DNA from: Cyanobium sp. ATX 6A2
GTDB lineage: Bacteria; Cyanobacteriota; Cyanobacteriia; PCC-6307; Cyanobiaceae
DNA: 64,000 nt
Reading direction: 5' to 3'
Assembly: GCF_024346355.1 (NCBI RefSeq)
Contig: NZ_JAGQCU010000001.1
Span: forward strand, 248,001 to 312,000
Part shown: in pieces, positions 50,814 through 53,853 of the stretch
Layout of the letters: every line of letters begins with the position of its first letter
Position numbering within the stretch: position 1 is the first letter of the stretch
The notes under the pieces: model-generated
What the model saw: the letters and a program-made list of their open reading frames with translations, nothing else
Told to the model about the DNA's origin: nothing
Databases searched by the model: none
Made by a program: the position numbers and the translations under genes

Positions 50814-50882
50814 CAAGGCCGCCGCAGGCCCCGGGCCGCCTGGGGTCCCGCTCCTACGGTCGTGCCATCCGCCGGCCCTGCC

Positions 50883-51062
50883 GTGACCCCCACCCCCAGC
50901 CCCCGCAACCGCAGCGAGCTCTTCAACCAACTGGCGGTGGCCTGCCTCGGCGCCGGTGTGGTCACCAGCGTGGCCGTGGCCCAGGGCCAGAACCCACTCA
51001 CAGCACTGGGCATCACCGTGTTCTCCGCGGTGGCGGCGGTGATGGCTGGCCAGCTGCTCTGA
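50883..51062 (+). CDS. Small membrane protein, unknown
   Basis: A 59-residue predicted protein from GTG at 50883. After a Pro-rich N-terminus (TPTPSPRNRSELFNQ) it is hydrophobic: LAVACLGAGVVTSVAVAQGQ and LGITVFSAVAAVMAGQLL, probably two short spans. No family recognised. The reading frame could begin at 50862. It lies 70 bases after ycf46 and 100 before the Lys/Asn-rich gene; codon use is like the chromosome's, giving moderate support. Confidence 0.5.
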   Translation: MTPTPSPRNRSELFNQLAVACLGAGVVTSVAVAQGQNPLTALGITVFSAVAAVMAGQLL

Positions 51063-51164: not shown

Positions 51165-52058
51165 ATGGCCCCCAACCCACACCGTGGTCTCTCGGGCACA
51201 GCTCTGGCCATGGCCCTGCTGATCACCAGCACCAGCACGCTGCCGGTGCTGGCCGCTGCCCCCCAACAGCGCCAGCTGGCCTCGGCGCAGCCCATCCTGC
51301 TGCTGGCGGAAAAATCCGAGGACGATAAAAACGAGAAAAAGAAGAAGAAGAAGAAGAAGCAGGAAAGCCAACAAAAGCAAAACAAACAACAATCAGATCA
51401 GAAAAAATCCAAAGGCAGCACGTCTCAAACCAACAAGGTCAGCGACAAGAAACGCGAAAAGATTTACGAGCAGGGACGCCAAGACGGCCTGAAGACCGGG
51501 AAGCAGAAGGGCAAGGATAAGGGCTTCCGCGAGGCGCAACGCCAGCAATGGAAAGCCTGGAACAACAACGATTGGCGGCGACACAACAACAGCCGACGCA
51601 ACATCTGGGTTACTCCAGTTCAGTACAACCGCGGCTTCTACAACAACCCATCATGGGCCCGGAATTCCAATTGGGGCAACAATCGCCCTTGGGGCGGCAA
51701 CAACAACAATTGGTACAGCAATAACAACAACCCGTCCTGGAGTTGGTGGGGCGGCCAGGCCCTTGGCTGGGGGGTCAACGCCCTGACCACGGCACTGATC
51801 GTCAACAGCGCCGTGAACAACGCCATCCGCCAGCGCCAGCCCACGGTTGCGGTGCCCAACAGCAGCATGCAGCTGTACTACGGCTCGGTGGAGCCCAGCG
51901 ACGACACCGACGTGACCTTTGTGGTGAACAAGAACGGAAACGCCTTCCAGATGGAGGCCGACTGCTCCGACGGACTGCTCGACGGCGAAGTTCCCATCAG
52001 CCTGGCCGAAGCGGAACTGATCAACACCGCCTGTCAGGTGGCCTTCGGCAGCATCTGA
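51165..52058 (+). CDS. Secreted Lys/Gln/Asn/Trp-rich protein, unknown
   Basis: A 297-residue protein unlike any I recognise. A signal peptide (ATG at 51165, core LAMALLITSTSTLPVLA, cleavage near AAA) is followed by an acidic-basic tract with eight consecutive lysines coded by AAG/AAA, then Gln/Lys-rich, then RRNIWVTPVQYNRGF, and an Asn/Trp-rich stretch (WGNNRPWGGNNNNWYSNNNN, from about 170). A hydrophobic segment (about 200-225, GWGVNALTTALIVNSAVNNA) precedes a compact C-terminal domain (SMQLYYGSVEPSDDTDVTF, DGEVPISLAEAELI) with two cysteines. Base composition in the middle is much more A-rich than the neighbours, a sign of low-complexity drift or transfer. Probably exported or surface-attached. 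Confidence 0.75.
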   Translation: MAPNPHRGLSGTALAMALLITSTSTLPVLAAAPQQRQLASAQPILLLAEKSEDDKNEKKKKKKKKQESQQKQNKQQSDQKKSKGSTSQTNKVSDKKREKIYEQGRQDGLKTGKQKGKDKGFREAQRQQWKAWNNNDWRRHNNSRRNIWVTPVQYNRGFYNNPSWARNSNWGNNRPWGGNNNNWYSNNNNPSWSWWGGQALGWGVNALTTALIVNSAVNNAIRQRQPTVAVPNSSMQLYYGSVEPSDDTDVTFVVNKNGNAFQMEADCSDGLLDGEVPISLAEAELINTACQVAFGSI

Positions 52059-52085: not shown

Positions 52086-52628
52086 TCAGCCCACGCCCCA
52101 GAGCGATTGCAGTGCGGCGATGTCGGTTGCCGTGAACCCCGCTCCTCCACCGGCGATCCGGTTGTAGGACATCACCGTGTCCCCGGTGTCGTAGCGGAGT
52201 GAGAAGGGCTTGCCGTTGGGATGGTCAAGGCCCAGGCCGTGGCCGATCTCATGGGTGATCGTGATGCGCTCCGAGCGGGTGAGCCGGTTGCCGCCCCTGT
52301 TCTCCCAGGCGATCTCAAACCAACCGGGGTTCAGGGTGGCCTGACCCAGCAAGCCCCGCTCACCAAAATCGCCAACGCGATAGAGATCGATCTCAGTGCG
52401 GGCTGGGCTGCGGTTCTCAACGACGCGCAATCCGGTGAGCCGATCCACCTCGGCGAAGGTGGAGCGGATGAAGCGGGCCTCGCGATTCGAGATCGCCTCG
52501 GCCCTGGTGCCATCACCGAGCCTGCGGGGTCGACCGTTGATCCAGTAGCGCACCCGCGTACCGCCGGCAAAGCGGCGCAGACTGCGGGCCCAACGGCGAT
52601 CGATGATGGCCTCAAGCGGCAGTGCCAT
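52086..52628 (-). CDS. Metzincin-type zinc metallopeptidase (matrixin-like)
   Basis: A 180-residue protein with the zinc site HEIGHGLGLDH at 126-136, and the Met-turn TVMSYNR (Met153), the defining features of metzincins. Before it lies the QATLNPGWFEIAWENRGGNRLTRSERIT segment with the beta strands and calcium-binding region of matrixins. There is no signal peptide, propeptide or RTX repeat; the N-terminus MALPLEAIIDRRWARSL is not hydrophobic. Secretion route and substrate are unknown. The ATG at 52628 shares the CATG with the divergent gene's ATG. Convergent with the Lys/Asn-rich gene, 27 bases apart. Confidence 0.85.
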   Translation of the reverse strand: MALPLEAIIDRRWARSLRRFAGGTRVRYWINGRPRRLGDGTRAEAISNREARFIRSTFAEVDRLTGLRVVENRSPARTEIDLYRVGDFGERGLLGQATLNPGWFEIAWENRGGNRLTRSERITITHEIGHGLGLDHPNGKPFSLRYDTGDTVMSYNRIAGGGAGFTATDIAALQSLWGVG

Positions 52629-53853
52629 GCACACCAATCCCGGAGCCAGTCAGCGTAGGCAGTCCCCAGGAGGGGACATCGGCGAGGCCCTGCGGGCGGC
52701 CATGCCGGCCCTGGCCAACAAGACCTACTTCAACTACGGCGGCCAGGGGCCGCTGCCCACCCCCAGCCTGGAGGCGATCACAGACTGCTGGCGGCAGATC
52801 CAGGAGCTGGGACCCTTCACCGGCGAAGTGTGGCCCCTGGTGGAGCGCACCATGGCCGCCCTGCGTCAGCGCCTGGCCGGCTGGATGGGGGTTTCCCCCG
52901 CCCGGCTGGCCTTCACCGAGAACGTGACCAGCGGCTGTGTGCTGCCCCTCTGGGGGCTGCCCTGGCGGGCCGGCGATCAGCTGCTGCTCAGTGACTGCGA
53001 GCATCCCGGCGTGGTGGCAGCCTGCCGGGAACTGGCCCGGCGCCACCGGCTGGAGCTGCACGAGCTGGTGGTGCGCGACCTGGTGCAGGACCAGGAGGCC
53101 ACCGATGCCGCGCTGCTGGAGCGGCTGGAGGGAGCCCTTCGCCCGCGCACCCGGCTGGTGGTGCTCTCGCATCTGCTCTGGAACACCGGCCAGCTGATGC
53201 CCATCACCCGGGTGGCTGAGCAACTGCGTGGCCATGCCAACCAGCCGTGGCTGCTGGTGGATGCGGCCCAGTGTCTGGGCTCGATCCCCGTGGCGGAGGC
53301 GGCCGCGGCGGCCGACATCTACGCCTGCACCGGCCACAAGTGGTGCTGCGGCCCCGAGGGTCTCGGGGTGGTGGCGCTCTCAGAGCGGCTGCTGGCGGAG
53401 GCCCGGCCCACCCTGATCGGCTGGCGCAGCCTCGGCCATGAGGGGTCGGCGGAGAGCGCCTTTCATGCCGACGCCCGGCGCTTCGAGGTGGCCACCTCCT
53501 GTCTGCCCCTGTTCGCGGGGCTGAACCGCTCCCTGGAGCTGCTGGAGGCCGAGGGCGAGGCCGAGCAACGGCTCGAACGGATCTGCGCCCTGGCCGGCCG
53601 GCTGTGGCGGCTGCTCGCGCATCTGCCTGGGGTGGAGCCCCTGCTGCAGGTGCCTCCACCGGCGGGGCTGGTGAGCTTCACGGTGGACGGGCCGACGCCG
53701 GAGGCTCTGGTGCAGAGCCTGGGGGCACGGCGCATCTGGCTGCGCAGCCTCGATGACCCCCACTGTGTGCGCGCCTGCAGCCACATCACCACAACCGACG
53801 GCGAGCTGGATCAGCTCGTGGCCGCGCTGGCAGAGCTGATCCCACAACCGTGA
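52627..53853 (+). CDS. Class V aminotransferase fold enzyme (cysteine/cystine C-S lyase-like)
   Basis: A 408-residue pyridoxal-phosphate protein similar to the cyanobacterial C-DES cystine lyase and to NifS-like enzymes. Conserved parts: KTYFNYGGQGPLPTPSLEAI, the LVVLSHLLWNTGQLMPI element, VDAAQCLGSIPV and the lysine in CTGHKWCCGPEGLGV (about Lys238). The typical long Cys loop of true NifS desulfurases is not apparent, favouring the lyase group, which supplies sulfur for Fe-S clusters from cystine. The ATG at 52627 overlaps the divergent metzincin's ATG; ATG at 52702 is an alternative but removes conserved residues. Confidence 0.85.
   Translation: MHTNPGASQRRQSPGGDIGEALRAAMPALANKTYFNYGGQGPLPTPSLEAITDCWRQIQELGPFTGEVWPLVERTMAALRQRLAGWMGVSPARLAFTENVTSGCVLPLWGLPWRAGDQLLLSDCEHPGVVAACRELARRHRLELHELVVRDLVQDQEATDAALLERLEGALRPRTRLVVLSHLLWNTGQLMPITRVAEQLRGHANQPWLLVDAAQCLGSIPVAEAAAAADIYACTGHKWCCGPEGLGVVALSERLLAEARPTLIGWRSLGHEGSAESAFHADARRFEVATSCLPLFAGLNRSLELLEAEGEAEQRLERICALAGRLWRLLAHLPGVEPLLQVPPPAGLVSFTVDGPTPEALVQSLGARRIWLRSLDDPHCVRACSHITTTDGELDQLVAALAELIPQP

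Follow-up and report, generated by a model that had tools for sequence, protein, structure and literature searches.

Among described proteins, the one closest to that reported here, by a weak structural match, is Haemophilus protein E (Adhesin_E, PF16747), an adhesin with a lipoprotein anchor. According to the portion of its description considered here, a disulfide links strand 4, at its end, with the main C-terminal helix (PMC6652776). For freshwater picocyanobacteria, arylsulfatases that are absent in marine strains are reported in the portion of a comparative account considered here (PMC9361551). The gene analysed in this study lies in a stretch of 64,000 nucleotides from Cyanobium sp. ATX 6A2 that was examined as a whole (the window). 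Its open reading frame is real, and its coordinates and the tracts that an earlier note had described are borne out by the sequence: along the 297 aa run a signal peptide, eight lysines, a Gx3 repeat, an Asn/Trp-rich tract and a compact C-terminal domain, and the Gln/Lys tract is present as well. The gene belongs to a family (family B) without a Pfam or NCBIfam model, in agreement with the note's remark that it fits no known family. The features of the locus are as follows.

50862–51062, + strand: small hydrophobic protein of 66 aa upstream, a conserved neighbour (tblastn, ten other syntenic loci)
51165–52058, + strand: target gene, 297 aa, family B, K-rich orthologue group OG1 (open reading frame, relatives, tree)
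51165–51257, + strand: signal peptide, residues 1–31 (sequence and hydropathy; cleavage near ALA-AAP placed by eye)
51297–51314, + strand: LLLAEK, the family box [LIVMW][LIVMW][AS][KRENQD] behind the signal peptide (member counts)
51336–51359, + strand: eight lysines, residues 58–65 (sequence; OG1 rows)
51474–51524, + strand: short Gx3 repeat, residues 104–120, longer in the other 10 OG1 rows (row comparison)
51648–52055, + strand: family domain, residues 162–297 as modelled (alignment; AlphaFold2 pLDDT 91.1, pTM 0.88)
51684–51749, + strand: Trp-rich family motif RPW...WY...W.WW, residues 174–195 (alignment)
51963–51965, + strand: invariant Cys267, directly behind the third strand (alignment, model)
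52032–52034, + strand: invariant Cys290, within the C-terminal helix (alignment, model)
52086–52637, − strand: metzincin-like metallopeptidase with HEIGHGLGLDH (Reprolysin_4, 24 bits, cut-off 22)

The low GC that the note saw in GC-rich surroundings was recovered, the GC content of the target (0.586) being the lowest among the 58 predicted window genes longer than 150 aa (mean 0.708). The dip is deepest at residues 50–97 (GC 0.40, GC3 0.60); GC3 is 0.758 at residues 98–130 and 0.761 at residues 131–201, about 2.4 standard deviations lower than the window average (0.866, sd 0.044), and rises to a host-like 0.896 in the C-terminal domain. Amino-acid choice (Lys, Asn and Gln codons) explains much of this dip, not all of it, because GC at third positions also drops in the central part of the gene. 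No promoter-like site was detected by the promoter scan, and the terminator scan gave one terminator-like site against 2.5 expected.

At the N-terminus, 19-residue hydropathy peaks at 1.75 in the windows starting at residues 13 and 14. The calculated pI is 10.2 for residues 50–130 and 11.6 for residues 131–201, the latter containing 21 Asn and 10 Trp. The hydrophobic N-terminus, the charge of the arm and the domain model support the idea of a secreted, basic protein with a structured C-terminal domain. The box behind the signal peptide occurs in 88 of 120 family members (shuffled mean 2.8, maximum 8) and, under another definition, in 88 of 115 members; among other putative secreted proteins it is present in 13 of 165, and among A proteins (described below) in two of 58. 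The pattern was chosen after the sequences had been seen, the members are related, and putative secretion was assigned by a simple filter. This conserved LIA[RK]-like box may be a processing or docking site. Searches of the target against Pfam and NCBIfam returned nothing over cut-off; matches to NCBIfam FliH and similar low-complexity matches were far under their cut-offs. The target shares a Gx3 periodicity with the deca-GX3 repeat of Yae1_N (PF09811, E 0.049) and differs in being a secreted protein with a short low-complexity resemblance, and membership was rejected at 13.8 bits against a curated cut-off of 27.5.

Family B is present in five copies in the target's own genome, the target included. 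With a single sequence as query, relatives were recovered from 18 of 60 genomes, among them all 13 of the genus. Profile searches of the stretches then under study yielded 65 ORFs, and 62 of their domains form alignment A1. With the A1 profile, every one of the 13 genus genomes matched two to seven times, some of the matches in genome G012 being pieces of a broken gene. At least 22 of 388 genomes of the class matched, every one belonging either to family f1 or to genus g35 within family f11, with only ten candidates scored in genomes having more and absences less sure. Genus g35 is perhaps Synechococcus elongatus-like, and one of its family copies (L046:4889-6698) lies divergent from a cytochrome c6-like gene. 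Among the best 80 of 150 named stretches, which were kept, most titles read Cyanobium, Synechococcus, Synechococcaceae or unnamed cyanobacteria, Aphanothece appears a few times, and Vulcanococcus and Microcystis elabens appear once each; several record titles name lakes or brackish seas and most give no habitat. A contig titled as a Bifidobacterium breve MAG (L165) carries cyanobacterial family B and is probably mislabelled. Among the titles listed by literature searches aimed at the family, none pointed to it.

In the tree, the target falls with ten other rows into one clade (OG1, support 100/95). All 11 rows carry a Lys run of three to eight residues and Gx3 repeats, the target having the longest run and the shortest repeat, and this retention argues that the tracts are not due to chance. 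The group is syntenic (yidC-AAA-NifS-like-aqpZ-murE), and tblastn located the AAA, 66-aa, NifS-like, YidC and AqpZ neighbours at every one of the ten other syntenic loci of the genus, a count that includes L032 and leaves out L080, a second copy in genome G009 located elsewhere. At L032:4512-8243 (G012) the OG1 copy is in pieces, with a frame-broken copy and a second copy without the N-terminal part; L145 is apparently the same contig. At a locus of genus g53 (L105), a Lys run and Gx3 repeats recur along with a portion of the OG1 neighbourhood. Here and below, the names AAA, metallopeptidase, sulfatase, FGE, FUR, Crp-like and solute-binding come from Pfam searches with one member each, and YidC, DUF177, NifS-like, AqpZ, MurE, RND, ClpB, FutA/FutB, DUF202, DUF1622, BASS and cytochrome c6-like are labels given by reading the sequences.

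All 11 OG1 genes have a GC content below the mean of the neighbouring predicted genes, the lowest at eight of 11 loci (with few neighbours each), and GC3 is below the local mean at eight of 11. Low GC is thus a trait of OG1, which speaks against recent import; together with the host-like GC3 of the C-terminal domain and the syntenic orthologues, it makes a foreign or phage origin unlikely. Phage and plasmid collections contained no match to the target at E 0.01. Relative to the nearest orthologue (L065), dN is 0.146 and dS 0.92 overall, with dS undefined for residues 32–130, and dN is 0.079 and dS 0.38 in the C-terminal domain; selection acting on this domain is shown at the sequence level. 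Relatives and tree show that the target is no orphan: it belongs to a multicopy family and is conserved at a syntenic position. In relation to the unusual gene pictured in the note, conservation extends through the genus (11 syntenic loci), but the composition is not ordinary, since the tracts and the low GC are kept. Processing or turnover by the neighbouring metallopeptidase, also proposed there, has become less plausible: the gene is found at six of the ten other syntenic genus loci (seven of 11 with the window), on the strand opposite to the target, and no signal peptide is apparent by eye. Its inconstant presence led us to reject it as an obligate partner.

Besides the Trp-rich motif, the shared domain of about 130 residues comprises two short helices, three strands and a helix at the C-terminus, and it carries two invariant cysteines. 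The AlphaFold2 model of A1 places helices at 34–41, 49–61 and 119–133 and strands at 75–83, 88–95 and 98–105 (add 161 for residue numbers of the target); confidence is lower in its Trp-rich part (block means 71 and 78). Exactly two cysteines are found in 140 of 141 family domains, and no cysteine occurs within the 120 aa preceding the domain in 129 of 141. Foldseek with the domain model gave no match at E 0.001 or better, a PDB sequence search with the A1 family none at E 10, and the 62 A1 members matched no Pfam family better than E 0.06. In VIA-align, the top three rows are all Haemophilus protein E (Z 5.8, 4.9 and 4.2 over 75–76 residues), one of them a protein E-PilA fusion, and the next protein follows at 2.7. 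Even the best row (rmsd 3.3, 76 aligned residues) is a weak match, as Z below 8 may reflect a common arrangement according to the tool's own warning.

Of the 124 distinct members, 122 have a net basic arm and 122 a net acidic C-terminal domain; 120 have both. A common yardstick, which asks for a basic mature part ahead of the final 75 residues and for acidity in those 75, is passed by 96 of 100 family proteins, compared with 16 of 90 for other putative secreted proteins and two of 50 for A proteins; stricter charge limits leave 81, 7 and 0, respectively. The family members are related, so these counts are not independent. The arm of the target is made of Lys and Gx3 tracts, and paralogues exchange Lys for Gly/Arg or Arg/Asp tracts, so it seems that charge rather than any single site has been kept across the arms.

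Many copies are accompanied by a second unannotated secreted family with six invariant cysteines (protein A, alignment A2). Its gene precedes 104 of 147 B ORFs in the same orientation at a distance of at most 2.5 kb; this set of ORFs contains duplicates and fragments and was half picked by similarity. Protein A lies upstream of 30 of the 62 A1 rows and of four of the five copies in the target's genome; the target is the copy without it, and OG1 as a group lacks it. Protein A is encoded in 18 of the 388 class genomes, all 18 among the 22 that have B. Examples, often just upstream of a B gene, are L062:5844-6356, L064:6033-6527, L061:6046-6546 and L063:5326-5694 (− strand). Three members had no Pfam match over cut-off, and hhalign found no relationship to B or Adhesin_E. 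An NCBIfam match to NuoI in 14 of 67 members (best E 0.00088) was taken as a chance agreement in cysteine spacing. The model of protein A is confident (pLDDT 91.2); its Foldseek and VIA-align matches (best Z 5.5) were taken as common beta arrangements, and no PDB sequence match was convincing (best E 0.97).

A cluster of 23 OMP-like genes is represented in 21 of 141 stretches around family copies, often after A-B pairs; one member reaches 23.6 bits against OMP_b-brl, short of the cut-off of 28.7. Other copies adjoin RND efflux, ClpB or FutA/FutB genes. Sulfatase and sulfatase-modifying genes occur in 26 and 29 of the 141 stretches, duplicates included, as near the A-B pair of L063 (7079-8611 and 9690-10709).

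The export signal, family membership, conserved domain and charge pattern can be read from the sequence itself. Taken with the invariant cysteines, the protein E rows, selection on the C-terminal domain and synteny, they lead us to favour, tentatively, a secreted, surface- or periplasm-held polyelectrolyte protein acting as an adhesive or matrix component. Once exported, the C-terminal domain would fold and its two cysteines would join; the Trp-rich segment and the two short helices may hold it to the outer membrane or to polysaccharide, and the basic arm might bind anionic polysaccharide, LPS, nucleic acid or acidic domains of neighbouring copies. An adhesion or matrix role, already raised by the note, has become somewhat likelier, given how charge is distributed and the weak resemblance to protein E, and is still putative; that it serves as surface glue is a guess, because the resemblance to a known surface adhesin is weak. 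The charge background test leaves these judgements unchanged, as it supports the charge pattern and not a particular role. Against the adhesive or matrix reading stand the missing Foldseek match, the low Z, the weak hhalign result and the lack of a lipobox, and periplasmic roles fit the same features. We nevertheless prefer it to a periplasmic envelope-maintenance or stress protein, whose arm would bind peptidoglycan or outer-membrane lipids from inside and whose domain would dock on an outer-membrane barrel or on protein A. The OMP-like cluster and the RND, ClpB and FutA/FutB neighbours of other copies are consistent with such a role, but the neighbours of paralogues vary and OG1 has neither protein A nor an OMP-like gene in its neighbour lists, and we hold this role to be somewhat less likely. 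A secreted protein binding nucleic acid, metal or mineral through its Lys, Gx3 and Asn tracts would suit the high pI of both tract regions, but is improbable given the absence of a Pfam or NCBIfam match over cut-off for the target and the replacement of Lys in paralogue arms.

Kinship of family B with Adhesin_E is possible. It is quite doubtful, however, that the family is a true distant member that has lost the strands between the two cysteines. Protein E does fill the top VIA-align rows, and cyanobacterial Adhesin_E proteins have one cysteine behind a strand-like stretch and another close to the C-terminus. The hhalign score of 17.3 exceeds the mean of column shuffles (10.5) and the reversed score (11.0), although one of 300 shuffles matched it (maximum 19.4), and the probabilities against Adhesin_E alignments of five and 17 cyanobacterial proteins are 5.6 and 2.7 percent. 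None of the 62 family members matches Adhesin_E at E 1, and the PF16747 profile has no match in the target's genome (G000); its matches fall in five of the 60 relatives and, across the class, in 56 of 242 genomes, with family f1 unrepresented. In addition, the cysteines are 23 residues apart in family B versus 49 in protein E, as given in the portion of its description considered here (PMC6652776).

What began as a single odd ORF is now a multicopy family of secreted proteins that lacks annotation; its domain is predicted with confidence, a partner gene, likewise unannotated, often accompanies it, and the charge pattern persists even though the arms differ greatly. It provides a concrete gene set for surface studies in small cyanobacteria, perhaps including S. 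elongatus if the presumed identity of genus g35 is right. There is a small chance that it represents a new class of self-assembling surface polyelectrolyte, in which the arm and the acidic head of neighbours would bind head to tail, or the arms would bind surface polysaccharide, in a coat holding best at low ionic strength. On that view, the family would be expected to favour fresh and brackish water, and paralogues would carry interchangeable arms on one conserved head.

Compared with freshwater-specific accessory genes, the family copies are similar in having a sulfatase gene nearby, likened by name only, and family B itself goes unmentioned in the portion of that account considered (PMC9361551). 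As modelled, the family resembles protein E in antiparallel strands and a C-terminal helix, with one cysteine at a strand end and one in the helix. The sequence likeness is below detection, and the target has no lipobox, its only cysteines being 267 and 290, so that the lipoprotein anchor of protein E is absent. Besides the shorter cysteine spacing, family B differs from protein E by adding the Trp-rich motif, helices and a basic arm.
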